Virus record (IMG/VR): IMGVR_UViG_3300035034_000514
Span: 1-25,484 of that record
DNA: 25,484 nucleotides
DNA from: a virus
Direction: 5' to 3' (one strand)
Shown here piece by piece: positions 507-21,200 of the stretch (position 1 is its first letter; the number at the start of each line of letters is the position of its first letter). The translations under genes were made by a program, and so were the position numbers. The notes beneath the pieces are model-generated. The model did not search any database. It was not told the origin of the DNA and was given only the letters and a program-made list of their open reading frames with translations.

Positions 507-1583
507 ATGGCTCGTTTAAGCCTCTGGAAGCCCCACAAAGGTCTCGATTTTAAATTTATTGATCGCGTAGTAGCCGAGCATCTTTATGCTGGGGGTACTG
601 GCGTACATGTTCACAAATATTTAGGTGTGCCGCAAAATATTAATAGTGCTAACGGGCTAGATATAGGTTCAAGCGAAAACGTTACAGGTGAGCCAAGCGA
701 AACGTTTATACAAGATCTATTGTTTCTTGAGAATCGCGATCGCAGCTACGATGATACTATTTACATAATGCGAGGGCAATATAATATCCTCGACAACGAT
801 GCGTACGATCTAACCCAATTTGGATTATTTTTATCTAACGATACGCTGTTTATGACTTTTCACATTGAGAGCATGGTAGAGACCTTAGGACGCAAGCTCA
901 TGCCCGGCGACGTGCTTGAGCTACCTCATTTGCGCGATGATCTGCTGCTAGGGCGCGAGGATGCTGCTAACAGATTTTATGTGGTGCAAGAAGGCACACG
1001 ACCAGCAGACGGTTACGATCCTGGCTGGTGGCCTCACTTGTGGCGTGTTAAACTTACTCCTATGCCAGACAGCCCAGAGTACAACGACATACTCGGGGAC
1101 GGCACAGAGGATGATGACCTCCGTAATCTTGTTAGCCAGTATGCTAACGATATTAAGATAAACGACGGAGTACTTGCTGAAGCAGCAGCGGAAGTTAAAT
1201 GGGATCCGCAATATCGACGCAACGAGCATTTGTATTTTGATCCGGCTGTGCCTGACAAACCCACCATCGGCTTCGAATATGCTGGTGCCGGTTATGAACC
1301 TCCTAACGGTGCTGCTATCATTGGAAGTGGCAGCAGTTTTCCGGACGATGCGAAAGATTGCGATTATTTTTTACGAACAGATTTTACCCCAAGCAGAATA
1401 TTTCAAAAGGATGGCGACCGCTGGAAGAATATCTCAACAGATAATCGATACGTGTGGGCTACTGCTGATCGCTTACTCACTTCGTTCATTAACAACGATG
1501 ATACCAGTGTGTGGACCAACGGAACTACGCAGCCAGTTAAAACAAACCTAAGCAAAGTGATTAGGCCTAAAACAGATGACTGA
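507..1583 (+). CDS. 14: T4 gp14-like neck (head completion) protein
   Basis: The 358-residue product starts MARLSLWKPHKGLDFKFIDR. It carries segments I associate with the neck protein of T4-like cyanophages: FLENRDRSYD, then MRGQYNI, then a DLTQFGLFLSNDTLF block followed by FHIESMVETLGRKLMPGDVLELPHL. The last block corresponds loosely to the T4 gp14 region with LSINPNLFKH and GDLIYFPM. A WWPHLWRVKLTP segment follows near residue 178. In T4, gp13 and gp14 form the neck that closes the filled head and receives the tail. T4 gp14 is shorter (about 256 residues); the longer form is usual in marine relatives as far as I recall. The start is well supported by AGGAG 7 bases upstream. It heads a plus-strand structural operon and lies two genes before the gp15-like gene, close to T4 order 13-14-15. 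No signal peptide or membrane segment is apparent. Confidence 0.75.
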   Translation: MARLSLWKPHKGLDFKFIDRVVAEHLYAGGTGVHVHKYLGVPQNINSANGLDIGSSENVTGEPSETFIQDLLFLENRDRSYDDTIYIMRGQYNILDNDAYDLTQFGLFLSNDTLFMTFHIESMVETLGRKLMPGDVLELPHLRDDLLLGREDAANRFYVVQEGTRPADGYDPGWWPHLWRVKLTPMPDSPEYNDILGDGTEDDDLRNLVSQYANDIKINDGVLAEAAAEVKWDPQYRRNEHLYFDPAVPDKPTIGFEYAGAGYEPPNGAAIIGSGSSFPDDAKDCDYFLRTDFTPSRIFQKDGDRWKNISTDNRYVWATADRLLTSFINNDDTSVWTNGTTQPVKTNLSKVIRPKTDD

Positions 1584-1632: not shown

Positions 1633-2148
1633 ATGAGTGATTTTAACACAGCACTAAAAATTGTATTAAAATGGGAAGGCGGTTATGTCGATCATCCTCG
1701 CGATCCCGGTGGTGCTACTAATCTAGGTATTACTCGTGCTGTTTACGAACAATGGCTAGGACGTAAGGTGACAAAAACAGCGATGAGAAAGCTAACCCAC
1801 GAGCAGGTTGAGCCTATATACAAAGAATGGTATTGGGATAAATTGCGGGCAGAAGATATTCCGCACGGTCTGGACATTTGCGTATTTGATTTTGGCGTAA
1901 ACGCAGGCGTTCATCGTAGCAGCCGTTATCTACAGCGTACAGTGGGTGCGACACAAGATGGCATCATTGGCCCTCTTACGCTTAAACAGGTTAACAAATA
2001 TGTAAAACGCAACGGTGTGGCGCAAGCTATACAGTCGTTTAGCGAATCACGTCGTGACTATTATCGTAGCCTCCATCATTTTGATACTTTTGGCAAAGGT
2101 TGGTTAAATAGAACTAACGATGTAGAACAGGAGGCACTGAAAGTATAA
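1633..2148 (+). CDS. GH108-family peptidoglycan hydrolase (putative N-acetylmuramidase/endolysin)
   Basis: From ATG at 1633 the product is 171 residues, a normal size for GH108 enzymes. The catalytic Glu lies in the family motif KWEGGYVDHPRDPGGATNLGIT (Glu15). The DFGVNAG segment near residue 100 and QDGIIGPLT near residue 125 match the second, peptidoglycan-binding half, and the end (FGKGWLNR) is also typical. The enzyme should cleave the glycan backbone of murein. It could act as a lysin from inside the cell or as a virion-associated hydrolase. No signal peptide or transmembrane segment is seen. An in-frame ATG exists at 1576, overlapping the gp14 stop, but 1633 is preferred because AAAGGA sits just upstream and family homology begins there. 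The stop overlaps the gp15-like start by one base (TAATG), so translation is probably coupled. Its placement between two neck/tail genes is unusual relative to T4. Confidence 0.88.
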   Translation: MSDFNTALKIVLKWEGGYVDHPRDPGGATNLGITRAVYEQWLGRKVTKTAMRKLTHEQVEPIYKEWYWDKLRAEDIPHGLDICVFDFGVNAGVHRSSRYLQRTVGATQDGIIGPLTLKQVNKYVKRNGVAQAIQSFSESRRDYYRSLHHFDTFGKGWLNRTNDVEQEALKV

Positions 2149-3476
2149 TGTCTAATATGGACTATTTTTACGACAGCCAGATACGTAGATATTTACTACA
2201 GCTGATTCGCGCTTTTAGTTTCTTTGAGGTGCAAGCAACTGATAGCAACGGCAACACTATCCAGCGTCGTGTGCCGGTGCGTTATGCTGACCCAAGCAGA
2301 ATGGTCGCGCAAATTATGAAAGGCAATAGCGAAAACATTCTAAACAGTGCGCCAATGATGAGCCTGGGTATTACTGCGCTCAAACAAGATCCAACAATGC
2401 GCCATGCTCCTGGCTATGTAGATCGCAGACAGGTAGCAGAACGAGAGTATAATGCTGTCACTGGTGCTTATACACAAAACCAGGGTAATCTGTATACGAT
2501 CGAAAGACATATGCCGGTGCCTTACATTATGACAACACAACTAGATATATGGACCACTAACACAACAAACAAGCTAGAGCTGCTTGAGCAACTGTTGGTT
2601 ATTTTTAATCCTAACATACAAATACAATCCAATGATAACCCACTTGACTGGACTAGCGTTTTTGAAATAGAGCTAACAGATGTGAACTGGAGTAATCGAG
2701 GTATTCCTGCCGGTACTGACACCACTATTGAATATGCTACATTAACATTCGACAATACAGTGTTTATTAATCCGCCAGCAAAGGTACAACGTCAGAAAAT
2801 TATTCAGCAGATTGTTACTAATATCCATAGTGTAACAGATGTACAAGATTTAAACTTTGAGTTTGATCGCTATTACGATTTCTTTGCTAACATCAACGAA
2901 GATAGTCGGTTAATTGTCACTCCGAACGATCTAGAAATCATTGTCTCAAATGGTACGCTCGAATTAGTTAACAGTGCTGATGAAGGACAGAGTTGGAGTG
3001 ACCTAATAGAAATGAAGGGCGACATTAGCTCTAGCAGCCGCGTCGAACTTAATTTGCGCAATGATATAGAAGATCGTAGCGAGCTAGTATATGGCACGGT
3101 TGCATTTACCGGCGACGATACAATTTTAAATTTTACAGTTGACACTGACACCTTACCTGGCGATACATTAGACCCTGTCAGGGTTATTGATCCCAATAAC
3201 TTTACGCCTGATAACACCGACGGTGTGCGTTATCTACTAGTGAACAATGATATTTTGGCTAATACTACTGCAAGTAATGTATGGAACACTACAGCTAAGG
3301 TTGGTAACATACTGGAATATGATAGCAATACATGGTCTGTAGCGTTCACAACATCAAGCAACACAGAGTACGTATCTAGCAGCATAAGCGGAACACAGTT
3401 TAAATGGACCGGGTCTGAATGGCTCGACAGTTACCAAGGTCAATACCGTGCGGGATATTTTCGTCTTATTCTCTAA
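2148..3476 (+). CDS. 15: T4 gp15-like proximal tail sheath stabiliser/tail completion protein
   Basis: The 442-residue product opens with YFYDSQIRRYLLQLIRAFSFF. It contains the segments that define this family in marine T4-like phages: IERHMPVPYIMT, DIWTTNTTNKLELLEQLLVIFNP, a DNPLDWTS block and FINPPAKVQRQ. T4 gp15 caps the contracted-tail sheath and tube and joins the tail to the neck. The first ~250 residues hold the recognisable core. The remaining ~190 are a longer extension ending QYRAGYFRLIL, which I cannot assign. ATG overlaps the upstream stop (TAATG), with AGGAGG at 2129-2134; an in-frame ATG at 2157 is an alternative. The 3' end is odd. A second, differently encoded copy of the last 10 residues and stop lies 258 bases downstream, beyond an HNH relic, so the present C-terminus seems to have been rebuilt by an insertion. 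The assignment to gp15 rests on remembered family patterns. Confidence 0.68.
   Translation: MSNMDYFYDSQIRRYLLQLIRAFSFFEVQATDSNGNTIQRRVPVRYADPSRMVAQIMKGNSENILNSAPMMSLGITALKQDPTMRHAPGYVDRRQVAEREYNAVTGAYTQNQGNLYTIERHMPVPYIMTTQLDIWTTNTTNKLELLEQLLVIFNPNIQIQSNDNPLDWTSVFEIELTDVNWSNRGIPAGTDTTIEYATLTFDNTVFINPPAKVQRQKIIQQIVTNIHSVTDVQDLNFEFDRYYDFFANINEDSRLIVTPNDLEIIVSNGTLELVNSADEGQSWSDLIEMKGDISSSSRVELNLRNDIEDRSELVYGTVAFTGDDTILNFTVDTDTLPGDTLDPVRVIDPNNFTPDNTDGVRYLLVNNDILANTTASNVWNTTAKVGNILEYDSNTWSVAFTTSSNTEYVSSSISGTQFKWTGSEWLDSYQGQYRAGYFRLIL
3442..3459 (+). repeat. Left copy of an 18-bp direct repeat at the end of the gp15-like gene
   Basis: AATACCGTGCGGGATATT occurs here in frame as (Q)YRAGY near the end of the gp15-like gene. 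It recurs exactly at 3700-3717. The two copies flank the HNH relic and are offset by 258 bases. Confidence 0.9.
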
Positions 3477-3690: not shown

Positions 3691-3699
3691 AAAATTGCG

Positions 3700-3717
3700 A
3701 ATACCGTGCGGGATATT
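3700..3717 (+). repeat. Right copy of the 18-bp direct repeat; start of an orphan gp15 C-terminus
   Basis: This is an exact second copy of the 3442-3459 repeat. In the right frame 3699-3734 reads EYRAGYWRLIL and then TGA, matching the gp15 end QYRAGYFRLIL. The last codons differ (AGA for CGT, ATA for ATT, TTG for CTC) while the protein is kept. The TGA overlaps the Nudix GTG start as GTGA. This looks like the original gp15-nudix junction. Confidence 0.82.
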
Positions 3718-3730
3718 GGAGACTTATATT

Positions 3731-4159
3731 GTGACCGTAACCGCAGCGGGCGTTTTATTTTTAGCTCGTGACACCGGTCGTTGTTTGCTACAATTGCGTA
3801 ACAGTGACAAGCGTCATCGCCACACCTGGGGATTTTTCGGAGGCATGCTCGAAGCAGGCGAGACGCCATATGAAGCTATAAAGCGTGAGCTAACAGAAGA
3901 AATCGGATTTGTGCCAGCGCTAGAAAAACTAAACCCCATTGATGTGTTCCAGAGCCACGACAAGCGTTTTTATTATTACAGTTTTGTGGCCGTTGTAGAA
4001 GCAGAATTCTCTCCTACGCTAAATAGTGAGAGCGCAGGATATGCATGGGTCGATATAGGACAGTGGCCACAGCCGTTACACCAGGGCGCTCGAACTACAC
4101 TAAACAAAAATAAAGGTACGGAAAAACTTCGTACCATCTTAGATATACACACCCAATAA
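3731..4159 (+). CDS. Nudix hydrolase
   Basis: From GTG at 3731 the protein is 142 residues, a compact single Nudix domain. The Nudix box Gx5Ex7REUxEExGU is complete at residues 38-60: G38, E44, R52-E53-L54, E56-E57, G59. The two glutamates of the EE pair should bind the metal. Such enzymes hydrolyse nucleoside diphosphates linked to another group, such as oxidised nucleotides, ADP-ribose, nucleotide sugars or capped RNA; the substrate is not evident. A TTG start at 3695 is possible but less likely. GGAGA at 3718-3722 sits 8 bases before the GTG, and that GTG overlaps the stop of the orphan gp15 end, which suggests ancestral translational coupling. The stop overlaps the next gene by one base (TAATG). 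Confidence 0.88.
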   Translation: MTVTAAGVLFLARDTGRCLLQLRNSDKRHRHTWGFFGGMLEAGETPYEAIKRELTEEIGFVPALEKLNPIDVFQSHDKRFYYYSFVAVVEAEFSPTLNSESAGYAWVDIGQWPQPLHQGARTTLNKNKGTEKLRTILDIHTQ

Positions 4160-4752
4160 TGCAAATAGTAGATATAAAATGCGCCAGAATCGAACAGGCG
4201 TTGCAGCAGTACATGCTCAACGGGGCAATCCACGATGACTTTAAATCTGGTCAGCTGTGTGTAGTTGATGTGCGTGGGTGCAGGGGACACCTAAAGTGTA
4301 ATGACGAAATTATTAATCATTTTATTTTAGTTATTGTTAACCAGCACAAATCCGTATTGCTAAAAAAGATGATTGCTGATTATAGCAAAATATTATATTC
4401 GTTGGACTCGCTACAAAAAGAATTTAGTATACCAATTGTGCTAGACAAATACCGTGTGTTAATAAATCCATTACGTGCGCTATATTTCGAAATGCTAAAT
4501 GTAATGAATCATTACTCAGGTACAGCCTACGAGAACACTATCTTAAAGATCGTGCAGGATGCTGATTTTAACACAAAAGCAAAAAATGCATTAGTAAATG
4601 ATATTACAGAGCTATTGCAATTTTATAACACTTATAGTGTGCACTTCGAAGACCAGATGCCACCTATACAGCTCATGCATGCACAGAAAAAAATATTCGA
4701 AATGCGCTTGTACTACCAAGCATTTAACGATATACTAACCTGGACTATTTAA
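4159..4752 (+). CDS. Hypothetical protein, predicted largely helical
   Basis: This 197-residue protein is not one I recognise. It begins MQIVDIKCARIEQALQQYML and has a hydrophobic stretch (HFILVIVN) near residue 55. The rest is mostly charged or amphipathic sequence suggestive of alpha helices. No catalytic motif, signal peptide or clear transmembrane helix stands out. Its ATG overlaps the Nudix stop (TAATG), so it is probably translated with nudix as the last gene of the plus-strand operon. Its end overlaps the bilin reductase gene, read from the other strand, by 4 bases. Length, coupling and codon structure support a real gene; function is unknown. Confidence 0.7.
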   Translation: MQIVDIKCARIEQALQQYMLNGAIHDDFKSGQLCVVDVRGCRGHLKCNDEIINHFILVIVNQHKSVLLKKMIADYSKILYSLDSLQKEFSIPIVLDKYRVLINPLRALYFEMLNVMNHYSGTAYENTILKIVQDADFNTKAKNALVNDITELLQFYNTYSVHFEDQMPPIQLMHAQKKIFEMRLYYQAFNDILTWTI

Positions 4753-5336
4753 ATTACGTCAGGAAAAAGAAGGTTGTGTACAAAATCATGTGCTCGTTCT
4801 TTTCCTATATTACTCTGTAACATACGAAAAGTTTGTGGATTCGCTCGTTGGCATTCAACATAATGCTGTTGTGCTAGTACACTATTTGCCTTGTTACCGG
4901 GCAGGATGCTTATGTAATCTTGCAACACGGTTACCCCAGCATGTATGTCATCTGCAGACGGGGTTGAGCAAACAAACTGATCGCTAAAGAAATGTGCCCA
5001 ATCTGGCAAAGGTCTAGGTGTGCCTACTTGTGGTATTGATACTGTGCGGTTGCCTACAGTAGGCGTTACATCTAAAAACATACCAGTAAAATTGCCATTT
5101 ATCTCAATCACATCAAACCCATAGATAGGCGAATCAGTATTAGTATGCGGCATTATTACGCAATGAACAATACTTACCTTGGGCGTGATAAATTCTTGCA
5201 GGTGCGCAGAGCGAAACAGTTTACTAGTCCAGGTCCTATTTGTCCACGGATAATCATATATTGCGCGTGACGATCCTACCTGACTAAGCAGAGTATCTAT
5301 TTCGGCTGAGAGTTTATTGTACCAAGTCAAAGACAC
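4749..5336 (-). CDS. pcyX: Ferredoxin-dependent bilin reductase, PcyA/PcyX-like
   Basis: The 195-residue product matches the ferredoxin-dependent bilin reductase family along its length when compared by memory with Synechocystis PcyA. SIVHCVIMP matches DILHCVMFP (His58, equivalent to PcyA His88). SPIYGFDV matches LPMFGCDL (Asp75, equivalent to catalytic Asp105). PDWAHFFSD matches PEWGNIFSD, and the AQQHYVECQRANPQT end region also matches. The family reduces biliverdin IXalpha to phycobilins using ferredoxin. The active-site His is kept here, whereas as I recall it is replaced in PebS, favouring a PcyA/PcyX type. The PcyA Glu76 position appears as Gln47, or as a shifted Glu48. PcyX from ocean phages makes phycoerythrobilin and also sits beside a heme oxygenase gene. 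The protein is about 50 residues shorter than PcyA. It starts with GTG inside the heme oxygenase gene (23-base overlap), so the two are co-expressed. Family is near certain; the PcyX label and product are inferred. Confidence 0.85.
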   Translation of the reverse strand: MSLTWYNKLSAEIDTLLSQVGSSRAIYDYPWTNRTWTSKLFRSAHLQEFITPKVSIVHCVIMPHTNTDSPIYGFDVIEINGNFTGMFLDVTPTVGNRTVSIPQVGTPRPLPDWAHFFSDQFVCSTPSADDIHAGVTVLQDYISILPGNKANSVLAQQHYVECQRANPQTFRMLQSNIGKERAHDFVHNLLFPDVI

Positions 5337-5823
5337 TATCTTGTATTGCCTCTATTAATGTAAATGCGTGATTTGCTTCAATGCCTAAATCTGTGTGTTT
5401 TCCTTCGAGACGATTACGTACCCATTCAATCGAATCAGTTCTTTGCGTAAAATCTAAATGAGTAGTAGGTCCAGGTGCAAGTTTTTTAAGCATTTGCCCG
5501 CCATATAAATCGCCTAAATAATTAACATATAGGTGTGCGTCTAATAATTCATCGCTAGTCTTGTTAATCCATTTAACGTAGTCTGTTGTTGCGTTTAACA
5601 CTACCGGATAAACTCGTTTAGTATCTTCTAATAGTAAATCAGCTCGACGGAGACTCTCAGGTAGTGTAATTCTTTTTTCTATAGCAAGGGTATATACATA
5701 TTTTTGATAGGTAAACATATTCCATGCGGTAGACGAAAGTTGACCTGCCATTAATGCCTTGCTGTAATTGCTTTGCTCTATGCGGTCGTGTGCATTTTGT
5801 GTTAGTTCTTTAAGTGTTGTCAT
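5314..5823 (-). CDS. ho1: Heme oxygenase (biliverdin-forming)
   Basis: From ATG at 5823 the product is 169 residues, shorter than cyanobacterial HO1 (about 230-240). The N-terminal LTQNAHDRIEQSNYSKALMAGQL matches the heme oxygenase start, with His12 as the likely proximal heme ligand. AHLYVNYLGDLYGGQMLKK, near residue 110, is the family signature; its GD.GG glycines and Asp shape the distal pocket. EANHAF near the C-terminus is also conserved. The enzyme opens heme to biliverdin IXalpha, CO and iron, using ferredoxin or another reductant. The start is chosen because homology begins there, with AGGA 11 bases upstream; the longer open frame to 5904 lies inside the oxygenase gene above. Its 3' end overlaps the bilin reductase by 23 bases, so biliverdin would pass directly to that enzyme. 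No ferredoxin gene is in the window, so reductant probably comes from the host or elsewhere in the phage. Confidence 0.92.
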   Translation of the reverse strand: MTTLKELTQNAHDRIEQSNYSKALMAGQLSSTAWNMFTYQKYVYTLAIEKRITLPESLRRADLLLEDTKRVYPVVLNATTDYVKWINKTSDELLDAHLYVNYLGDLYGGQMLKKLAPGPTTHLDFTQRTDSIEWVRNRLEGKHTDLGIEANHAFTLIEAIQDSVFDLVQ

Positions 5824-5836
5824 GCTAGTACTTATC

Positions 5837-6427
5837 CTAATCAAAGAAAAACATGTGCCAAAGGCGACCAGATTGCATGTCGTGTCCAAAATATTCGCTA
5901 GCACTATGGATAAAGCCTCCGCTAAAAATTACAAGACGATTGTACACGTTACCAAAGCTATCCACACGGTCAAACGGAGTCTTGTCGAGATAGGTGTCGC
6001 CGGGAAAAATTTCTGCGCCTTGCTGTGTACTCCAATCTATCTGGCTGTTGTGGTGTACCTTGTGGCCGCGGTGCTGCCACGTGCTCGTCCCACATGATGG
6101 CGGGGCGTCTGGCGTCAGGTAGATCATTGCTGCCCACGTTTGCTCATCGCAGTGGTACACAAGTTTTTCGCCTGCGTAATTATACTGGAAACGGGCGTTC
6201 ATTCCGTGCTCTTCCCAGCGTGTTATTTTGTGGCCCATTATATCTTCAAACGCTTCCTTGATTCCCGGAATAAAAAATTGCTTGCGGGTGCGTCTGCCTA
6301 TGTACCCAGGGTCGTCAAAAAATTCCTGCTCTAGCGCATACTGACGTATAGCATCTGGGTCTTTATAAAAGTTTTCTACTATGTGCACTCTCTTGTCGTA
6401 GTTTTTGTTTACCGTTAATAGATTCAT
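5837..6427 (-). CDS. Putative 2OG-Fe(II) oxygenase-like protein (DUF6445-type)
   Basis: The 196-residue protein begins MNLLTVNKNYDKRVHIVENFYKDP. It has the layout of a small cupin-type iron/2-oxoglutarate oxygenase: HCD at residues 92-94 (HxD), then WAAMIYLTPDAP, then RLVIFSGGFIHSAS with His174, and GRLWHMFFF with Arg188 placed to bind 2-oxoglutarate. I associate this pattern with the DUF6445 proteins common in marine phages, whose substrate is not known to me. It shares a one-base overlap (TAATG) with the glycosyltransferase upstream and lies 13 bases before the heme oxygenase start, so all are probably one transcript. Iron released by heme oxygenase could be relevant to an iron enzyme, but that is speculation. 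Confidence 0.68.
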   Translation of the reverse strand: MNLLTVNKNYDKRVHIVENFYKDPDAIRQYALEQEFFDDPGYIGRRTRKQFFIPGIKEAFEDIMGHKITRWEEHGMNARFQYNYAGEKLVYHCDEQTWAAMIYLTPDAPPSCGTSTWQHRGHKVHHNSQIDWSTQQGAEIFPGDTYLDKTPFDRVDSFGNVYNRLVIFSGGFIHSASEYFGHDMQSGRLWHMFFFD

Positions 6428-7212
6428 TAAAAGCCCAAATGCTTAGATCGCACATACCCAAGATCCCATTTAGTGTAGTCAATCGGTATATCTTCTTTGT
6501 TGTATGGGTGCTCCCACGGTCTGCACACCCTCCAATCCGGTCCCCATTTTTCAGTAAGGTACTTTATGTTTTCAGCATTAATAACGTCCAGTCGATCTTT
6601 AAGATCTGGCTCACTTACTTGTGTTTGTGATCCTTCTTCGTAATAGCGCCATGCCGGTGCATTACCGTGCTGATAGCTGTTTGTTGTACCAACAACTTTT
6701 CTTATCGGTCTGTGTATCATTCGCATTATGTAATCAGCATCCTCATTGTATGCGGGATAGGTGTTTTCATCAAACAACCCGAACGTCTGTACTATCACAT
6801 CACGTATAGCAAACAAATCCCATGCGCCTACATTGTAATCACCGGGGTTAGGATTTATTAGTCCTAGCTGATCATCTTCTAGCATAAGCGAGTGCATTTC
6901 ATTTAACAAACCGGGGTCGAATGCAACATCGTCGTTAACAATAATCCAATATGGTGCATTCATGTAACACTTAATTATAAGGTTCCAGGCACCAGCACAT
7001 CCGATGTTAGCAGGCATGTGACATACTTTAATACGTTTAACAAATTTATGCGTAGTGTTAACTAGTTTATCTAGCTCTGCGTCAATTTCTCCTCGACCGT
7101 TGTTATTAATAATAACAAAATCATCTACTGGGTAGTCAATGCTCATTAGCAGACGTGTAACCCAATACGGATTACTAACTACCGCTGTGCCGATTACAGG
7201 AATGCTTTTCAC
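6427..7212 (-). CDS. Family 2-type (GT-A) glycosyltransferase
   Basis: The 261-residue product has the GT-A layout of small family 2 glycosyltransferases. It opens with PVIGTAVVSNPYWVTRLLMSID and a VIINNNG segment near residue 33. MPANIGCAGAWN follows near residue 66, then IIVNDDVAFDP with NDD (93-95) as the DxD-like metal and nucleotide-sugar site. The NEDADYIMR motif near residue 155 corresponds to the ED acidic residue. It should transfer a sugar from a nucleotide donor, in the cytoplasm; donor and acceptor are unknown. No transmembrane helix is present. The start overlaps the upstream methyltransferase stop by 4 bases (ATGA), and the stop overlaps the next start by one. It sits in a glycan-type cluster with the beta-propeller and methyltransferase genes. 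Glycosylation of phage fibres or of host surface sugars are both possible. Confidence 0.85.
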   Translation of the reverse strand: MKSIPVIGTAVVSNPYWVTRLLMSIDYPVDDFVIINNNGRGEIDAELDKLVNTTHKFVKRIKVCHMPANIGCAGAWNLIIKCYMNAPYWIIVNDDVAFDPGLLNEMHSLMLEDDQLGLINPNPGDYNVGAWDLFAIRDVIVQTFGLFDENTYPAYNEDADYIMRMIHRPIRKVVGTTNSYQHGNAPAWRYYEEGSQTQVSEPDLKDRLDVINAENIKYLTEKWGPDWRVCRPWEHPYNKEDIPIDYTKWDLGYVRSKHLGF

Positions 7213-9041
7213 TTATCTGTCCCTAGCATATAATCTTTAGCACATTTTACTTCGTCGTCTGATTGCATTAGTTGCACTATCTTGTTATCCACAAGATCTG
7301 GGTGCACCCACCAATCTTCGTATGCTCGCCCATTACGGTCTGGCGAAATATTACCAGCTACCATCTTGTAACCTTGTGACTCTAGAAACGTGCGACTACG
7401 CTCTCGGTAATCGTTGTCGGGGCTAGCATAGTAGTCGTGCTCATACGTTATTACAGCAAAACGATATGTGTCGAACGGAATGTTTAGCAATGCTTTAAAT
7501 GTATTTTCGGGTGGGTCGCAATCCATTTGTAAATAGTCGATATCTTTTGGCGCGCCTACTCCTGCTAGCATGCGCTCATAATTCGTGCAGGTTGCATCCT
7601 TAATTAAAAAGGTGTTATTGCGTTTCTCGTAAAACTGCACGGCATACTGCTCATCTAGATCTATGCTAACACCTTTCCAGCCAAACTCGCGCTCTAGTAA
7701 TACTGTATTATTTCCGTATTCAGCATTACCTGCGCCGATCTCTAAATAATATCCATCGCGCTTGCCATTTGCTATTGTCAACGCAAATATATCTTGATAG
7801 CTTTCGCTATAATTACGCTCAATGTTTTTGCTGCCATCGAATTTATAACGTAGTTGGCTGTGGAGATCAGCAGTGTATGGCTCAATTTCTTTTGTAGAAA
7901 ATGCGTTTAGATTAACAAGATTATCGTGTATCATTTGTTTTTCGATTGCAGGTAGATTATCTCGCTGATACATTTCTAGGAATAAACGCCGTGCCTCGTC
8001 GCATAGTCCACACCACCATGCTGCATGTGCTCGCTGTATTTCTATAGCTAGCTTGCCTGGATATCTAATAGACTCGTGTGTGACTAGCATGCATACGTTA
8101 TTATCGGCAGCAATAACACCAAGGCTAGCCCAAGTGTAGCTGTCAAACCAGCTGCCGTCGTTGTTTTCGTTTGATGTAATTTGTCCTAGCATGTAATATG
8201 CTTCTGGGCGTTCTGGGTGTAACACAATAGCATGTTGCAGCATGCCTTTAACACTAAACTTGCGGATTGTTTGCTCTTCGAAGCATTGTGCTGCGCGAAT
8301 CATGCATTCGTATTGCCAAAGTGTATCATCTGTCCGTTCTGCTGTGCGTACATAATAACTAATAGCACTAGCGTTTTGATTTATTTTGTCATAATAGAGC
8401 CCAAGGTCCCAGTTGTTGTTAGCGTTATCTTCGTCTTTGTTATAGTAATAGAGTAACGTATCTATTTCGTCATAAGCAAAATAATCTTCAACGTCTTTAA
8501 GATTTAACCATTTTACTCTATTCTGGCACAAGCCGTCATAGGTTAATGTTTCATCTGGTATAGCTATTAGCTCTTGCTTACCAAACTCGATAATACCGCA
8601 GCCTTCATCTGTGTCTAGTACACACATACTAATGTTTTTGCTAGATGCGCGTAGCTTTACCCAGGCTTTCCAGCAATCGCCATTCCAGTGTCCACCAGTA
8701 AACGGAACAGTCTGGTGTTCCTCTTTTAATGGATTCAGGTCATGACACACAATGTATCCGGTCGGGCTTAGAACTGCTAGAGCATTAGTAATATCTCTGT
8801 AGACTTGCTCTGCTTCGTGTAATCCGTCAATAAAAATAACGTCATACGTGTCAGTGTTGTTTGCAAAAAACTCATCACTTGAGATTACATGCTGTGCTTT
8901 TGCTTGAGGATCAGGATCGACGCTTGTTTTGTTTTTGCAATTTATTAACTGAAAGTTAAGTCCATCTGAAATGCCTATTTCCAAATATGCAGTTGCGCCA
9001 CAAGCGTCGATTAAGCGGTTAATAATTCCTGTTCTATTCAT
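7209..9041 (-). CDS. Double methyltransferase: N-terminal class I SAM domain, helical-repeat linker, C-terminal FkbM-like SAM domain
   Basis: The 610-residue protein appears to contain two SAM-dependent methyltransferase domains. The first, residues ~15-120, has motif I as YLEIGISDG, SVDPDP, then YDVIFIDGLHEAEQVYRDI and GYIVCHDL, like Methyltransf_24 enzymes. A central region (~210-390) is rich in helices resembling tetratricopeptide repeats (WDLGLYYDKINQNASAISYY, PERPEAYYMLGQI). The second domain, ~425-565, begins YYLEIGAGNAEYG, then GWKGVSIDLD, then DIDYLQMDCDPPE, like FkbM-type methyltransferases that act on sugars. Standard single-domain enzymes are 200-280 residues, so this is a natural fusion. 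Both SAM motifs look intact. It overlaps the neighbouring genes on both sides by 4 bases. Acting with the glycosyltransferase on a glycan is a reasonable inference; the targets are unknown. Confidence 0.82.
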   Translation of the reverse strand: MNRTGIINRLIDACGATAYLEIGISDGLNFQLINCKNKTSVDPDPQAKAQHVISSDEFFANNTDTYDVIFIDGLHEAEQVYRDITNALAVLSPTGYIVCHDLNPLKEEHQTVPFTGGHWNGDCWKAWVKLRASSKNISMCVLDTDEGCGIIEFGKQELIAIPDETLTYDGLCQNRVKWLNLKDVEDYFAYDEIDTLLYYYNKDEDNANNNWDLGLYYDKINQNASAISYYVRTAERTDDTLWQYECMIRAAQCFEEQTIRKFSVKGMLQHAIVLHPERPEAYYMLGQITSNENNDGSWFDSYTWASLGVIAADNNVCMLVTHESIRYPGKLAIEIQRAHAAWWCGLCDEARRLFLEMYQRDNLPAIEKQMIHDNLVNLNAFSTKEIEPYTADLHSQLRYKFDGSKNIERNYSESYQDIFALTIANGKRDGYYLEIGAGNAEYGNNTVLLEREFGWKGVSIDLDEQYAVQFYEKRNNTFLIKDATCTNYERMLAGVGAPKDIDYLQMDCDPPENTFKALLNIPFDTYRFAVITYEHDYYASPDNDYRERSRTFLESQGYKMVAGNISPDRNGRAYEDWWVHPDLVDNKIVQLMQSDDEVKCAKDYMLGTDK

Positions 9042-10021
9042 AGCACACCACCAAACACCATGTGATCAAATACTGTTATCGGTGTTTTTATAACGTATGC
9101 TGCGTTGTCTTGATATCCAAATGTAATATAAATATCATCGTCTTTCTGTGCCATACCTACCGAAAATTCAACTTGTGCACCCATTATGCTAAAGTCTCCA
9201 GTGTAGTGCTTGATATTCCAATTTTTATCCCAGTATATAAAGCGGTGTCGATATACACCATCTTTACGTCCTACTTCGCTCTTAAATAAATCAACCTCGT
9301 GAGTTAAAGCTAAGTATCCATCGCGATAAGGCATAACTTGTGACCCACCTCTAACGTCACGCGGTATCGGAGTATAATCAGTTAACGCAATTGTTTTACT
9401 TGTTCCATCGGGAAAAATCTTAACTGCTTCAGTTGGATTACTCCACTTAACATAATGGAATGGTTGATCCAATATAGGCATCCAATTCTTTTCGCAATAG
9501 CTGTCTGGATCGTTCGGAGGCTCAATGCGCAATCGAGTAGTTTCTTTCCATACGCCATTGCTTAATTGTTCTATTTTACAAAGCTCCATGCGGCCTTCGC
9601 CATTCGGTTTAATGTCTCGACGTACACCAGTAGTGTAATATTCATTATCCCATTTAATTAAACGAACATCCTCGAGGCCAATAAATTCCCAGTTAGCTTG
9701 ATCAACGAAATTACTAGTGTCAATCTTGTTACAGTTAATTAAATTTAAGTCGTTGTCTAATTCACCTATCCAGTTCCATGTACGAAGGTGCATATCATCT
9801 TCGGGATGAAGATAGGTTAGTGGGCCAAATGGATGCTGAAACAGTTTTTTCTCAGAATGATAAAACGTGTAATTTACATGACGTATGTTTACTAGCATGC
9901 GACCGTTGTCGTTGAGAATACTAGGATTCATTAGACCCGTCATGCCTGTAGTGTTACCGTCGATTATCATGGGACGCAGTACAGCGCCGTGTTCTAGCGC
10001 ATAGTTACAAAACGTGATCAT
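9038..10021 (-). CDS. GH130-like beta-propeller protein (glycosidase/phosphorylase fold)
   Basis: The 327-residue protein looks like a five-bladed beta-propeller of the GH130/GH32/GH43 type. Supporting segments are MNPSILNDNGRMLVNIRHVNY (~31-51), GLEDVRLIKWDNEYYTTGVR (115-134), KNWMPI, RGGSQ and a late HEVDLF...YRHRFIYWD block. EFSVGMAQ follows near the end. GLEDVR resembles the EDPR active-site region of GH130 beta-mannoside phosphorylases, but I cannot assign a catalytic residue with certainty. In phages such proteins often accompany glycosyltransferases. The start at 10021 lies just inside a late-type octamer at 10048-10055, so this gene probably heads the accessory transcript running to the bilin reductase. 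The stop overlaps the next start by 4 bases. No signal peptide is evident. Confidence 0.62.
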   Translation of the reverse strand: MITFCNYALEHGAVLRPMIIDGNTTGMTGLMNPSILNDNGRMLVNIRHVNYTFYHSEKKLFQHPFGPLTYLHPEDDMHLRTWNWIGELDNDLNLINCNKIDTSNFVDQANWEFIGLEDVRLIKWDNEYYTTGVRRDIKPNGEGRMELCKIEQLSNGVWKETTRLRIEPPNDPDSYCEKNWMPILDQPFHYVKWSNPTEAVKIFPDGTSKTIALTDYTPIPRDVRGGSQVMPYRDGYLALTHEVDLFKSEVGRKDGVYRHRFIYWDKNWNIKHYTGDFSIMGAQVEFSVGMAQKDDDIYITFGYQDNAAYVIKTPITVFDHMVFGGVL

Positions 10022-13522: not shown

Positions 13523-16500
13523 CTACATTAGATTAACAAGAATTTCAATAACGCCTTTCCCGCCAGCGTTTTTTTCAATTGCTTTACCTATTATAGTGCC
13601 TGGCTTTGGATTAATTGCTGCTCTTGCGTATCCTTCTTCTGTGCTGGTTTCTAATAGATCACCAGGATTTACTGATCCGATTACTTTGCATGGCACTCTT
13701 CCACATAATGCAATAAACGGATGCGTTGCATCAGACCCTGCGCCACTGTTCATCATTACCGCTGGCTGTGTACTTATCACACCTGCTACTCGCGTGTCTT
13801 GTGGTACGTTGTCTGTTGTTATCTCATGATTGCCGCCAAATACCATTACGGTGCCTGGCTCTGCTACTATGTCAGTATGGTATCTTTCTGCTAAGTCAGC
13901 ATACTGTGCACTAGTTGCTTGCCCGTATACTACGTCCCAGCTCTGAACAGCTGATCCTAAATCCTGCGACCCGTTTGTGCTCGGAACAAAATCGCCGGCG
14001 TTAGTAACACGCATGCGGCTTATGCCATCAGTGTGGAAAAATATCTGTCCTGTTCCGCCTGTTAGGTTACCAACGAGAAGGTTAGCGTTACCTCGCTGAA
14101 AGATACGACTGTCATCATTTGCGTTGATATCAATTGTAAGTCCGTTAGTTGATCCGCCTGCTGTGTCTCGAAGATCTATTTGGCCGCCATTGACAGCACC
14201 CGACACTAAACCTATTGTTAGAGAACCAGCTGATGTTAACTGCATAGTCTCATCATTATCGCCAGTATACCAGCAATGCTGATCAGCAAAGCCATCTGTA
14301 TCAGTTGTAAAAATTTTATACAGGTCAGATTCTAATTGACCCGAAGTTAGTATCGTAAAATCAGCACTATTATCCCATTTTAGCTTAATCCTTGCGCCAT
14401 TTGAATCTAGGCTAGTGTTGTCTAGTAATAAGGCAACCTCGCCATTTTCAGCAAGATGCAATCTTTCCCTTGGCAAGTTAGATCCTATCCCTAGCCCGGT
14501 TGAATCTAAGACTGTTCTAAGCTGACCACCGGTATAAGTATGGAAACTGTCACCGTTGTTTATGTATTCAATTCGACCGACTATAGCTGATGCAGTGTTA
14601 CCAAAGAATAAACTAGCAGATGACGTAGTATTACCTGCTCTGATTGCTACAATTGCTGTGCCATCAGAATCCCTTACATCTAGATTATATTGCGGAACAG
14701 TCGATGTGCCTATGCCAACCAGGTTTGATGAATTAATTGTAATAGCAGTCGAAGCAGCGTCGTCATTGATGCCAGTTGATGTTAAGTTGCCAACAGATAT
14801 ATCATTTGTCGTAGTGTTACCATTGTCAGTAACACTATCTAATGTTGCACTTAGGCCACTATCAGTACCTTGGGTTCCTAGTGTGCCTTGGGTTCCTTGA
14901 CTTCCAGTAGTTCCCTGACGGCCTTGGGTTCCTTGACGGCCCTGGGTTCCTTGTGTTCCTGTAGCACCTTGTGTTCCTGTAGCACCTTGTGTTCCTGTTG
15001 TGCCTTGCGCGCCAGTATCTCCATCACTTGGGCCTTGGATGCCTTGTAGTCCTATCCCGCCAGCGGAATATATTACTATGCGTGTCCCTGCTGTAATTAA
15101 GCTAGCAGTTCCGTCGGCGTCAGTAAAAGCAAAAAATCTTACTACGTCGCCGTCGCTTAAATTTAAGGCAGTGGATAACCCCACACCGCCAGTGTTTTGG
15201 TCACTGTCACGAGCCACATAATTTGATACTTGCTCGGCTGTTAATTCAACAAATCCAGTGCCTGTGTCGATCTCAGTTCTAATAAACATCTCAGCTCTGT
15301 TGTTATTAATTGACCTGGCACTAACACTAAATATATAATTACCAGTTGCATTACATGTAATTTCGTTGCTTGCTATAGTAAACGGAGCTTGTGATATAGT
15401 TGGTGTGCCCCATGTGAGGTCGGCACGAACGTTACTGATGCTAGCAGTGCTAGTGCCGTTTGCTTTTATAATAAAGCCATCAGCAGCTTGTCCTTCGATT
15501 CCTTGAATACCTTGCTCGCCGAACGTTCCTTGCGTACCGGTAGCTCCCTGTACTCCAGTTGCTCCTTGTGGGCCTGTTGTTCCTTGTATGCCTTGGTTAC
15601 CATCATCACCTGTTGTACCTTGCTGGCCATTATTACCCTGACGGCCTTGGGTGCCTTGGTTACCGGTGGAGCCTTGATTGCCCGTAGAGCCTTGGATGCC
15701 TTGATTGCCAGTAGTGCCTTGACGTCCTTGAATGCCTTGGTTACCAGTAGTTCCTTGACGTCCTTGAATGCCTTGATTGCCAGTTGTTCCGTCATCGCCT
15801 GTTGTGCCTTGACGGCCTTGGGTTCCGTCATCGCCTGTTGTGCCTTGCGGGCCAGTAGTTCCTTGGTTTCCAGTAGTTCCTTGACGTCCTTGAATGCCTT
15901 GACGTCCTTGTGTTCCTTGATTACCTGTGGTTCCTTGATTGCCAGTTGTTCCTTGGATTCCTTGGATGCCTTGATTACCAGTAGTTCCCTGATTACCATT
16001 ATTACCCTGACGGCCTTGGGTGCCTTGGTTTCCAGTAGTGCCTTGGTTACCAGTGGTACCTTGGTTACCAGTAGTTCCTTGGATGCCTTGATTACCAGTA
16101 GTTCCCTGATTACCAGTAGTTCCTTGATTACCAGTAGTGCCTTGATTACCAGTAGTTCCCTGATTACCAGTAGTTCCTTGTACTCCCTGGATGCCTTGAT
16201 TACCAGTAGTTCCCTGATTACCAGTAGTTCCTTGTACTCCCTGGATGCCTTGGTTACCGGTAGTTCCCTGATTACCAGTAGTTCCTTGTACTCCCTGGAT
16301 GCCTTGGTTACCGGTAGTGCCTTGGTTACCGGTAGTGCCTTGCTCACCAGTAGTTCCCTGATTGCCCGTAGAGCCTTGGATGCCTTGGCGTCCTTGTGTT
16401 CCAGTAGAGCCCTGATTGCCAGTTGTACCCTGTATGCCTTGATCACCTGTTGTGCCTTGTGCACCAATCGGCCCCGATGTAGTAATCCATTGTTCAGAAT

Positions 16501-17797
16501 CGCCATCATCAAAATAAAAGTTTAAGGTACTGTCATTTGTGTCAAACCATAACTCGCCAACGATCGGGGATACAGGCGCTGTGTCATCTACTTCTATGCC
16601 AGCAGATTGTCCTTGTATACCTTGACGGCCTTGAACTCCTTGTGTTCCTGTAGTTCCCTGACTAGCCTGTGTGCCTTGTACTCCTTGATTACCAGTAGTT
16701 CCTTGGATGCCTTGCTCACCTGTGGTCCCTTGGTTACCAGTAGTTCCCTGATTGCCAGTAGTGCCTTGTATACCTTGGCGTCCTTGGTTTCCGGTTGTTC
16801 CTTGGTTACCAGTTGTTCCTTGATTGCCCGTAGTTCCTTGTACTCCTTGTATGCCTTGATTGCCAGTTGTTCCTTGATTGCCAGTTGTTCCTTGGTTACC
16901 AGTAGTTCCTTGTACTCCCTGTATGCCTTGATTACCTGTGGTTCCTTGATTACCTGTGGTTCCTTGATTACCTGTGGTCCCTTGTTGTCCAGTAGTGCCT
17001 TGATTGCCAGTAGTTCCTTGATTACCCTGACGTCCTTGGATGCCTTGCTGCCCAATAGTTCCTTGACGGCCTTGGGTTCCTTGGATGCCTTGGTTACCAG
17101 TAGTTCCTTGGTTACCAGTAGTGCCCTGGTTACCAGTAGTTCCCTGATTGCCAGTAGTTCCTTGTATGCCTTGATCACCGGTTGTACCTTGACTGCCTTG
17201 TGTTCCTTGTGTTCCTGTAGATCCTTGTAATCCAGCAACAGTAGATGGGTCAACAAAACTAATTGTACCAGAGCCATCTGTGCTCATTATGAAACCGTCG
17301 GCACCGTCTGCTAGCGGAAGAGTATAGTCATTGATAATAAGCGTACTATCAATAGTTACATTAGATGATTCTAGAAATTCTAAATTAGTTATTGACCCCC
17401 CGACTCCTGTGCCAAACGTAATTGTACCACTTACGTCAATATTGCTAGTAAATATGTCGGTTGCCGTTAGCGTAGCAAATGTCTTATCGCCTAGGTTATT
17501 AGTGTTAATCCATTGGTTTGTATTGCCATCGTACGCAAGTACATCAGCATTACCAACCGATGATATGCTAACGTCTGTTAGTTGCGGAAGAGATATATTT
17601 TCTACTGCGTTTGTTGCGAGGTCTACCCAGTTTACGCCGTCGTATATTTTTACTAATACATTAGAACTGTCGAGCCAAATGTCGCCGGTGTTGATATCAA
17701 CCGTCGGTTCGTCTGATATTCCGTAAATTTTAGAACCGCTTTTGCCAATCTGAAAATCAGATTTAGTGGTTCCTTTGAAGTTGCCAAAAACTGCCAT
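13523..17797 (-). CDS. Giant collagen-like tail fibre with C1q-like domain and shared C-terminal domain
   Basis: From ATG at 17797 the protein has 1424 residues. GGAGA 6-10 bases upstream supports this start over one six codons earlier. The N-terminus (MAVFGNFKGTTKSDFQIGKS) resembles the 1068-residue fibre's MAGFRSIKG start. Collagen-like triplets fill ~187-395 and ~443-770 (GNQ-GTT-GIQ-GVQ type, almost no proline), separated by a module with GELWFDTND. A beta domain at ~771-912 (ATGNYIFSVSARSINNNRAEMFIRTEI...LNLSDGDVVRFF) looks like a C1q/TNF jelly roll, as in C1q or BclA. Short collagen follows to ~972. Beta-rich fibre repeats follow (TGLGIGSNLPRERLH). The final ~130 residues (YADLAERYHTD...VFGG...GRVPCKVIGSVNPGDLL) are shared with the other collagen fibre. 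It is probably a trimeric virion fibre binding the host surface. Confidence 0.85.
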   Translation of the reverse strand: MAVFGNFKGTTKSDFQIGKSGSKIYGISDEPTVDINTGDIWLDSSNVLVKIYDGVNWVDLATNAVENISLPQLTDVSISSVGNADVLAYDGNTNQWINTNNLGDKTFATLTATDIFTSNIDVSGTITFGTGVGGSITNLEFLESSNVTIDSTLIINDYTLPLADGADGFIMSTDGSGTISFVDPSTVAGLQGSTGTQGTQGSQGTTGDQGIQGTTGNQGTTGNQGTTGNQGTTGNQGIQGTQGRQGTIGQQGIQGRQGNQGTTGNQGTTGQQGTTGNQGTTGNQGTTGNQGIQGVQGTTGNQGTTGNQGTTGNQGIQGVQGTTGNQGTTGNQGTTGNQGRQGIQGTTGNQGTTGNQGTTGEQGIQGTTGNQGVQGTQASQGTTGTQGVQGRQGIQGQSAGIEVDDTAPVSPIVGELWFDTNDSTLNFYFDDGDSEQWITTSGPIGAQGTTGDQGIQGTTGNQGSTGTQGRQGIQGSTGNQGTTGEQGTTGNQGTTGNQGIQGVQGTTGNQGTTGNQGIQGVQGTTGNQGTTGNQGIQGVQGTTGNQGTTGNQGTTGNQGTTGNQGTTGNQGIQGTTGNQGTTGNQGTTGNQGTQGRQGNNGNQGTTGNQGIQGIQGTTGNQGTTGNQGTQGRQGIQGRQGTTGNQGTTGPQGTTGDDGTQGRQGTTGDDGTTGNQGIQGRQGTTGNQGIQGRQGTTGNQGIQGSTGNQGSTGNQGTQGRQGNNGQQGTTGDDGNQGIQGTTGPQGATGVQGATGTQGTFGEQGIQGIEGQAADGFIIKANGTSTASISNVRADLTWGTPTISQAPFTIASNEITCNATGNYIFSVSARSINNNRAEMFIRTEIDTGTGFVELTAEQVSNYVARDSDQNTGGVGLSTALNLSDGDVVRFFAFTDADGTASLITAGTRIVIYSAGGIGLQGIQGPSDGDTGAQGTTGTQGATGTQGATGTQGTQGRQGTQGRQGTTGSQGTQGTLGTQGTDSGLSATLDSVTDNGNTTTNDISVGNLTSTGINDDAASTAITINSSNLVGIGTSTVPQYNLDVRDSDGTAIVAIRAGNTTSSASLFFGNTASAIVGRIEYINNGDSFHTYTGGQLRTVLDSTGLGIGSNLPRERLHLAENGEVALLLDNTSLDSNGARIKLKWDNSADFTILTSGQLESDLYKIFTTDTDGFADQHCWYTGDNDETMQLTSAGSLTIGLVSGAVNGGQIDLRDTAGGSTNGLTIDINANDDSRIFQRGNANLLVGNLTGGTGQIFFHTDGISRMRVTNAGDFVPSTNGSQDLGSAVQSWDVVYGQATSAQYADLAERYHTDIVAEPGTVMVFGGNHEITTDNVPQDTRVAGVISTQPAVMMNSGAGSDATHPFIALCGRVPCKVIGSVNPGDLLETSTEEGYARAAINPKPGTIIGKAIEKNAGGKGVIEILVNLM
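14875..17237 (-). repeat. Collagen-like coding repeats (9-bp triplet periodicity) in the 1424-residue fibre
   Basis: G-x-y triplets give nested periodicity of 9, 18 and 54 bases in three blocks (about 17237-16611, 16470-15485 and 15050-14875), split by two globular modules. A frequent unit encodes GNQGTT. Threonine and asparagine are common at x and glutamine, threonine or valine at y; proline is nearly absent. The DNA repeats are candidates for slippage and recombination. Confidence 0.9.
16181..16342 (-). repeat. Three tandem 54-bp units inside the collagen region
   Basis: The motif TACTCCCTGGATGCC starts at 16181, 16235 and 16289, exactly 54 bases apart, with near-identical sequence between the first two. 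Each unit encodes 18 residues of GNQ/GTT/GIQ/GVQ triplets. The third unit diverges toward its end. Confidence 0.88.
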
Positions 17798-17812
17798 ATA
17801 CTGTCTCCAAGT

Positions 17813-17850
17813 CATTGCTTAGGCAATGTCTGCGAGAGTTAAACCCGCAG
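17813..17850 (-). promoter_or_regulatory. Two adjacent hairpins in the leader of the giant fibre mRNA
   Basis: In the minus-strand leader, CTGCGGG pairs with CTCGCAG (17850-17844 with 17836-17830, one G-U pair, 7-base loop). Next CATTGC pairs with GCAATG (17828-17823 with 17818-17813, loop CTAA on the mRNA). The second hairpin ends 4 bases before the GGAGA ribosome site at 17804-17808. The pair fills most of the leader after the promoter at 17865-17872. They may affect mRNA stability or translation. No T-run follows, so they do not look like terminators. Confidence 0.5.
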
Positions 17851-18226: not shown

Positions 18227-21200
18227 TTAAACAATTATTTCCACTGTTCCTTTACCAGTGTCAGGCTTGTTAGCAAGAGCTTTGCCTACTATTGCGCATG
18301 CTCGAACAACGTCTGGGTTAGCACGTTCACAGTATCCTGGAGTCATGCTGGTCACTAATATATCGCCTGCGAATACAGCACCTGTCACTAATGCTGGTGT
18401 GCGACCTCGTAGTGCTATGTATTGACCAGCACCATCTTGGTTAAGCATAAAACCTGGCTTGTCTGACACTACACCAATAACACGCGAATCTGCATAGTTT
18501 GTGGTAGTTGTAACTTCGTCGCTGCCGCCAATTACAAGCACAGTGCCGACAGCGTACTCTGAATCTGTAACATATTTCTCAGCAAGGTCGCCGTATGTTG
18601 CTGCTGTTGTTGTACCGCTAAAGTTGTTAGAGAACAACGTATTAGTTGATGCGTCATATGTTAAGTTTTGCGTATGTACTTCAGCAGTTTCCGGAGTACC
18701 GCTAGCAGTTACCATCACAGGGAACAACGATGTATCAGTTGTGTTGTTTGCTGCATTAATAATAGTATTCGGTCCTGCATTACCTTGTACACCTTGCGTT
18801 CCGAAACTACCTTGGATGCCTTGTGTAGCTGAACCAGTTGACCCGTCTGCTCCTTGTATAGCAGGTCCTTGTAATCCTTGTAATCCTTGTAATCCTTGTA
18901 ATCCTTGAATGCCTTGGTTACCAGTAGAACCCAGTGTTCCGTCTATGCCCTGATTTCCTTGATTTCCTTGTGCTCCAGTTGTGCCTTGTGGGCCGTCTGC
19001 GGGACCTTGAATACCTTGCACGCCTTGTGTTCCGCCGCCGCCTGTTGTTCCCTGGGCTCCTTGTGGGCCGTCTGCTGGTCCCTGAACGCCTTGTATGCCT
19101 TGTACTCCGTCTTCGCCTATTGTGCCTGCTGTGCCTTGTGGGCCTGCTGCGGGTCCTTGTGGGCCAACTGGTCCCTGGATGCCTTGATCACCTGTGCGAG
19201 CAAAAGTAATGACCATCGGTAAGCCGTCTGTAAATGACGCGCCGCTTCCGTCAACGAAACCACACGATACAGTAAAGTATCCGGCATTTTCGCTAAGTGT
19301 ATTAATAGTAAACAGCGCAAAGTTTGCTGGGTTAGATTCTTCGGAAACTTTAAAGTGGCCTTTTAGTGTGCTAGTACTGTCATCAATTGTGCGTAAATAT
19401 CCTTGTATATCGGTACCGTTGTTATCTTGATCATCGATATATAATGTAGTAGCACTTGATAAACTAGTAGTATTAAATTTTAAATCACCGGCGCCCGGAT
19501 CAGTGGCATTAGTATCAGTATCGAAATCATACGCGAAACTTGCGCCGCCGAATTCACCTGTGCGGCCTTGTAGTCCCTGGGTTGCTTGCCCACTAATACC
19601 CTGTATGCCTTGTGGTCCGAATATGCCTTGGACTCCTTGTGGCCCTTCTGATCCTAGTGTGCCGTCTATGCCTTGTATTCCCTGAGTACCCACAGATCCT
19701 TGCGTTCCGCTAGTTCCCTGTGGCCCTTCTGCGCCTAGTGTTCCGTCTATGCCCTGACGTCCTTGTAATCCCTGTGTTCCTTGCGCGCCGGTGGGTCCTT
19801 GTGGCCCTACTCCTTGTAGTCCTTGGCTTCCTAGCGTTCCTTGTATTCCTTGTTCGCCGCGTATTCCCTGGAATCCTGTGCCGCCGAATTCGCCGGCTAT
19901 GCCTTGAAGTCCTTGTGTTCCTTGAGTGCCTTGCTCGCCAGTTGTTCCCTGGGGACCGGTTGTTCCTTGATTACCCTGACGTCCTTGAATACCTTGCTCG
20001 CCGTCTGTGCCTTGAGCTCCTTGAATACCTTGCTCGCTTATAGCACCCTGGATGCCTTGAATACCTTGCTCGCCTGTTACTCCTTGCCGTCCTTGGCGGC
20101 CTTGGGTTCCTTGACTGCCTTGTGTTCCTTGTGGTCCAACAATCTGGCCGACATCTGTCCATACGTCAGATACTTCTGTCTCAACCCATAGGCTGCCGCT
20201 TGTTTCGTCAATGACGCCATCGCCGATGCCAGCAGACGGAAACGCTGCATTAAGTACAGCAGATTCATTTCCGGCGCCATTCGCTAATACGTTAGGCACA
20301 CTACCGATAATGGTTACGGTTGTTCCGTCGTTTCCTGTTATGCCCTGGATGCCCTGGATGCCTTGGATGCCTTGATTACCCTGGATGCCTTGCTCACCTT
20401 GGATGCCTTGCTCGCCGGTTGTTCCTTGAGTGCCTTGCTCGCCGGTTGTACCTTGACTGCCTTGTGTTCCTTGTGTTCCTGTAGCACCTTGACTTGCTTG
20501 CGATCCTTGTATGCCTTGCTCGCCATCTGCACCCTGGATGCCTTGCCGGCCTTGAACGCCTTGTGTTCCTGCTGCTTCTGGTCCTTGGATGCCTTGCCGG
20601 CCTTGAACTCCCTGACGGCCTTGCGTGCCGAATTCGCCTTGTGTTCCTGTTGTTCCTTGTTGGCCTCGAACGCCTTGTATGCCTTGACGTCCTTGACGTC
20701 CTTGTGTTCCTTGACTGCCTTGGGCGCCGTCTGCTCCGGCTATGCCTTGAGCACCTGTTATACCCTGGATGCCTTGCGGTCCTAGATTACCCTGAACACC
20801 TTGCTCGCCTAAGGTGCCCTGGGTGCCTTGAAATCCTGTTACGCCCTGGGTGCCTTGGAGTCCTGTTGTTCCCTGGGACCCAGGTGGGCCTTGTATTCCC
20901 GACGGACCTCTAACCTGACCTACATTTTGCCATACGCCAGCTGAGACCTGCACCCATAGATCGCCTGTAGCACCATCAATGATGCCGTCACCTACTACTG
21001 CTGATGGGAACGCTGTGTTGATTACACCCGATTCATTTCCTGCGCCGTTTGACAGAACATCATTGACCTGGCCTTCTACGTTTACGCTCTCACCGGGTGT
21101 TCCTTGCAGTCCTTGAAATCCGTCAATGCCTTGTATGCCTTGAGTACCTTGTAATCCCTGGTCGCCAATTAGTCCCTGAACGCCTTGGGCTCCTTGTGGG

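Follow-up and report, generated by a model that had tools for sequence, protein, structure and literature searches.

A first-pass annotation of a viral DNA stretch of 25,484 bases from IMG/VR (referred to as the window) proposed a two-gene route from heme to bilin in a phage with no photosynthesis gene in view. This raises the question of which reductase the phage carries, in what genomic setting the pair is found and to what end an infected cell would make a bilin. Pairs of this kind are on record as hemO-pcyX in pelagiphages and as hemO-pcyA in the freshwater 527-kb phage CB_2 (PMC11480375, PMC7674155).

The gene pair and its active sites

The pair consists of a ferredoxin-dependent bilin reductase (FDBR) and a heme oxygenase (HO):

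4749..5336, minus strand: FDBR of a compact AX-clade type (PF05996, trees, AlphaFold and Foldseek to PcyA)
5314..5823, minus strand: heme oxygenase, 169 aa (PF01126, pLDDT 95.7, Foldseek to HO-1)

The HO lies upstream and overlaps the FDBR by 23 bases (5314-5336). The FDBR ORF begins with a GTG, the furthest-upstream ATG, GTG or TTG past the preceding stop, so that 195 aa is its maximum length with those start codons; for the HO we prefer the ATG at 5823, the mechanical ORF beginning at GTG 5904. Gene identity, folds and catalytic residues were computed. The FDBR matches the Pfam family Fe_bilin_red (PF05996, E=1.1e-16, 61.7 bits against a cut-off of 31) and the HO the family Heme_oxygenase (PF01126, E=1.5e-14, 54.8 bits against a cut-off of 23). 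Among PDB sequences the top match of the FDBR is PcyX 5owg (1.2e-11), with Nostoc PcyA 2g18 a close second (2.4e-11), and the HO matches HO-1 and HO-2. AlphaFold models built from alignments of 42 (FDBR) and 37 (HO) sequences reached mean pLDDT values of 94.8 and 95.7, respectively. Foldseek aligned the FDBR model with PcyA (TMq up to 0.83), with PebA, PebB, PebS and PcyX matching too, and the HO model with HO-1/HmuO (TMq up to 0.88). Profile and fold thus place the former in the FDBR superfamily, while profile, proximal His, distal GDxxGG helix and fold make the latter an HO of the HO-1 type. Single-sequence scans of IMG/VR found no near kin of either protein. The overlapping pair of 169 and 195 aa is therefore real rather than a chance arrangement, and families, folds and kept catalytic residues support a predicted heme-to-bilin pathway at the level of the gene pair.

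In the HO, the distal motif YLGDLYGGQ (residues 102-110), which the first-pass annotation had singled out, and the proximal His12 are intact, and all key residues are present. The FDBR retains each of the 15 columns that are invariant in an alignment of 42 FDBRs; its H45, H58 and D75 correspond to PcyA H74, H88 and D105, in agreement with the claim that the active-site His and Asp are kept. That annotation missed an altered active-site residue, namely Gln at position 47, where PcyA has E76 and PcyX has D55 (the PcyX and PcyA columns were equated through the 5owg numbering, assuming an 8-residue tag). Of the PcyA residues Glu76, His88 and Asp105 the window enzyme thus has the His and the Asp, with Gln for Glu76; it likewise has Gln47 in place of the PcyX Asp55. 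Pre-PcyA proteins are defined by replacement of His88 by Asn, Thr or another residue (PMC10151467), and the window FDBR has His58 at this site.

According to Rockwell et al., Glu76 is specific to PcyA and needed for 18-vinyl reduction (PMC10151467). Since this residue is Gln in the window, phycocyanobilin (PCB) would be an unlikely product, and phycoerythrobilin (PEB) or phytochromobilin would be the likelier outcome. A profile scan of IMG/VR yielded at least 580 stretches coding for an FDBR, and 80 of them were retained; in this set of 80 loci, a single further viral group (L017/L018/L020) shares the Gln. The PcyA-like Glu is common among phage FDBRs, being found in about one third of the retained loci (L013-L044); in the survey of Wegner 2024 all metagenomic viral FDBRs except that of CB_2 fell within PcyX (PMC11480375).

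Position of the reductase among bilin reductases

Two phylogenetic trees place the window FDBR inside the AX clade, which unites alphaproteobacterial PcyA with phage PcyX and excludes cyanobacterial PcyA (support 98 and 100/100); the sequences of CB_2, Bradyrhizobium ORS278 and pre-PcyA are absent from the FDBR tree. In both trees its sister is the viral sequence L013 (support 99 and 100/97; 42% identity), and within the clade the two stand next to PcyX, to the PcyA of alphaproteobacteria and to a large group of phage enzymes whose E76 site is Glu. Three sister positions were left standing by the AU test, which rejected neither PcyX (p=0.084) nor the phage Glu group (p=0.109) nor Roseomonas-type PcyA (p=0.121). 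The window enzyme falls outside the PebS, PebA/PebB and cyanophage PcyA groups. PebS of cyanophage P-SSM2, a phage FDBR like that of the window, groups with PebA/PebB, far from it. The annotation was thus right that the enzyme is not PebS-like, the tree separating it from PebA/PebS and Foldseek aligning it with PcyA.

The resemblance to PcyX that had also been claimed stands only in part. As a member of PcyX the enzyme was ruled out, because PcyX is monophyletic without it (support 100/99) and Gln47 replaces Asp55; moving the window FDBR without L013 into PcyX was likewise rejected (p=0.007). It could nevertheless be a functional equivalent of PcyX, that is, a four-electron PEB synthase as in pelagiphages. 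Consistent with this are the top PDB match to PcyX 5owg, the unrejected grouping of window, L013 and PcyX, and the fact that the best isolate match is the hemO-pcyX phage Mosig (Pelagibacter phage Mosig EXVC030M), by coverage for the FDBR and by E-value for the HO. The separate PcyX clade and the loss of the PcyX-specific Asp argue against it, and we regard such an equivalence as possible without expecting it.

Judged from its sequence, the window FDBR is an unusually short, deep lineage of the AX clade that it shares with L013; the two are the shortest complete FDBRs of the set (195 aa in the window, about 192 aa in L013). L013 differs from the window enzyme in having Glu in the E76 column; the HO beside it belongs with those of the PcyX type and a NifU-like gene lies upstream; no backbone gene common to L013 and the window was found. 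Small size and an altered active-site residue might also betray a decaying, non-functional cassette. With 15 of 15 invariant FDBR columns, the HO motifs and the overlapping frames intact and both folds confidently predicted, we consider decay very improbable. A further proposal, which we think unlikely, is that window and L013 form a separate compact type of phage bilin reductase and that the Gln-bearing window enzyme makes a bilin unlike those of PcyA or PcyX (e.g. phytochromobilin) during jumbo-phage infection of a heterotroph. The window copy in itself is a natural active-site variant, offering a direct test of how bilin regiospecificity is controlled.

Jumbo-phage backbone and glycan island

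The pair is flanked by structural and backbone genes on one side and by a glycan island on the other:

507..1583, plus strand: virion structural protein (PHROG 11591, 2.5e-88; 42-44% to PA5oct and Atu_ph07)
1576-2148: GH108 lysozyme, between structural protein and sheath stabiliser
2148..3476, plus strand: tail sheath stabiliser (PHROG 11196, 3e-104; 37-38% to PA5oct and Phosso)
3695..4159, plus strand: NUDIX hydrolase of the jumbo-phage backbone (PF00293, 1.1e-20; equal position in PA5oct)
4159..4752, plus strand: hypothetical protein of 197 aa, in convergent orientation to the FDBR (PA5oct has a gene at equal position, by order only)
5837..6427, minus strand: DUF6445 (2OG-Fe(II)-oxygenase-like) protein (PF20043, 5.3e-10; final island gene in relatives)
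6427..7212, minus strand: family 2 glycosyltransferase (GT2), island gene (PF00535; syntenic homologues)
7209..9041, minus strand: methyltransferase protein, FkbM-like in relatives, island gene (PF13578; syntenic homologues)
9038..10021, minus strand: beta-mannosyltransferase-like protein, island gene 1 (55% to Synechococcus phage DSL-LC02, 48.5% to S-SCSM2R)

Sheath stabiliser and structural protein share 35-44% identity with those of Phosso (469 kb), PA5oct (287 kb) and Atu_ph07 (490 kb), and the backbone matches are to jumbo phages of Pseudomonas, Agrobacterium and Sinorhizobium. The block of structural protein, sheath stabiliser and NUDIX hydrolase follows the PA5oct/Atu_ph07-type gene order, found in PA5oct itself and in many IMG/VR contigs. 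It differs from PA5oct in the GH108 gene inserted between structural protein and sheath stabiliser, which adjoin there; in Phosso an endolysin immediately precedes the sheath stabiliser homologue. The 197-aa hypothetical protein has matches at 23-29% in four further loci (L219-L221, L228). The computed lineage makes the window phage, on sequence grounds, a myophage of the PA5oct/Atu_ph07/Phosso jumbo group of probably giant size, the window being a 25,484-base record and genome size being taken from relatives. The label T4-like therefore holds in the broad sense, but the tail proteins belong to the jumbo lineage. Further along the minus strand, two very long collagen-like fibre proteins of 1430 and 1068 aa (13523-17815 and 18227-21433) contain G-x-y repeats in which GTTGNQ and GIQGxQ are frequent. 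No tRNA genes were found in the window.

The annotated neighbourhood of glycan enzymes is confirmed by the island upstream of the HO, which runs on one strand from the mannosyltransferase-like gene through methyltransferase/FkbM and GT2 to DUF6445. Thirteen IMG/VR contigs (L188-L200) contain the island genes, whole or clipped by contig ends, with identities of 40-75%, and DUF6445 homologues in 13 viral contigs are 68-75% identical; neither HO nor FDBR lies beside the island in the stretches of L188-L200 examined. A shorter island without GT2 is syntenic in the Synechococcus phages S-SCSM2R and DSL-LC02 (40-57% identity). Because the HO starts 13 nt past DUF6445 and the island occurs without the pair in relatives, the pair looks to have been added at the end of the island, next to the tail genes. 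Having joined at this point it would probably be co-expressed with the island, and co-transcription is what we infer from the arrangement. The T4 late promoter TATAAATA has 2 matches where 2.26 would be expected, and neither lies immediately before the cassette; sigma-70 and terminator scans of the sequence stayed at chance level. Backbone relatives (L209-L217) carry a DUF6445 homologue at the equivalent cargo site past NUDIX, with extra oxygenase-like genes in L210, which suggests a cargo hotspot after NUDIX.

Distribution and likely output of the cassette

In nearly all of the 80 loci kept from at least 580, which were found via the FDBR, an HO lies directly upstream, mostly with a short overlap. 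Cassettes with a PcyX- or Glu-type reductase occur together with a sheath stabiliser of the window's type on contigs of 318 kb (G008), 353 kb (G009) and 364 kb (G010) and on a 140-kb piece (G014); a 191-kb contig (G046) carries a cassette as well. No cassette was found in PA5oct, Phosso or the other backbone relatives searched, many of which are fragments. Since some contigs of the same lineage have one while these phages do not, the cassette is sporadic cargo.

The published cassettes share much with the window. In Mosig the two genes overlap and follow the same order, the HO is immediately preceded by a gene of the 2OG-Fe(II)-oxygenase type, and neck/tail genes are nearby. Mosig differs in sequence (27.6% identity for the FDBR, 30.5% for the HO), in the Asp at the PcyX Asp55 site and in its Kyanoviridae backbone. 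CB_2, which is thought to infect a heterotroph, is likewise a giant phage that combines an HO with an FDBR of the PcyA/X type; this FDBR, however, has been proven to be a PCB-producing PcyA, and a 5-ALA synthase is near it (PMC11480375, PMC7674155), whereas the window has Gln for the Glu required. The kind of cassette is thus already published, and as far as the literature found shows, the compact Gln-bearing lineage, the PA5oct-like jumbo setting and the add-on anatomy are new. The window copy extends the cassette to this jumbo lineage and presents it as an add-on at a defined cargo site.

The explanation that we favour, as probable though well short of certain, is that the two genes are coupled in translation and form a heme-to-bilin cassette of a jumbo-lineage myophage, with the bilin as selected output. 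The HO would cleave heme of the host, giving biliverdin IXalpha, CO and Fe2+, and the FDBR would reduce biliverdin on the A-ring side through its kept His/Asp pair, with electrons presumably supplied by host ferredoxin. Its activity would have a precedent in the HO-FDBR pair of CB_2, which is active in vitro (PMC11480375). A phage-borne ferredoxin was considered as donor and rejected: none of the IMG/VR contigs searched has a ferredoxin gene, and only Mosig and P-SSM2 have one.

From this gene content we infer the purpose as well: most likely the bilin serves the infected cell, and iron release is a by-product. The reverse reading takes the cassette as a module for iron or heme turnover, in which the HO frees host-heme iron and the FDBR merely clears biliverdin. 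In its favour, no key residue of the HO is lost, iron supply has been discussed for such cassettes (PMC11480375) and no bilin acceptor was found in the related phages searched. Six of 26 cassette contigs, however, encode a 5-ALA synthase; all six are of the PcyX type, none having the window's cassette type, and they include the three jumbo relatives G008-G010. As making heme merely to free its iron would be pointless, these relatives fit bilin output better, and the pairing of FDBR with HO in nearly all loci, found as they were via the FDBR, suggests that the reduced bilin matters. We therefore find the turnover module doubtful.

A light-harvesting role was set aside. No photosynthesis gene is seen in the window, as first annotated, and psbA (PF00124) is computed to be absent from 26 related cassette-bearing IMG/VR contigs, P-SSM2 scoring as positive control. 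Profiles for phycobiliprotein (PF00502) and phytochrome (PF00360) found nothing over cut-off in 14 large phage contigs and Mosig, with positive controls scoring for both. The bilin could still supply phycobilisomes in a cyanobacterial host, as in ordinary cyanophages, and synteny of the island with S-SCSM2R and DSL-LC02 would agree with this. Yet the backbone matches that of jumbo phages infecting Pseudomonas, Agrobacterium and Sinorhizobium, the reductase groups with neither PebS nor cyanophage PcyA, and psbA is found in 0 of 26 related contigs, which makes a cyanobacterial host unlikely and phycobilisome supply quite improbable. The non-cyanobacterial host that had been proposed is hence plausible from the backbone, which points to a proteobacterium, though the island, being common to Synechococcus phages, gives no host call. 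Relatives would indicate a marine source.

Some features of the wider set of cassettes deserve mention. HO type and FDBR type go together in phage cassettes (L013-L092, about 48 of phage and a few from bacterial bins among those with Asp): the distal-helix Gly-Asp of the HO (HO-1 G139-D140) is present in 51 of 51 cassettes having Asp in the E76 column, and its Asp is missing in 23 of 27 with Glu, counts that are not independent as the sequences are related. In L013 (7475-8585) the HO falls among PcyX-type HOs though the FDBR is sister to that of the window, from which cassette partners appear to reassort. A ClpS-like gene directly precedes the HO in about 22 PcyX-type loci (L061-L091 and others), and many have a DnaK-like gene further upstream, both called by eye. 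PcyX-type FDBRs with an HO also occur on contigs assigned to MAGs of Neomarinimicrobiota, Halobacteroidaceae and Rickettsiales (L098, L107 and L118), which are probably phage contigs binned with bacteria.
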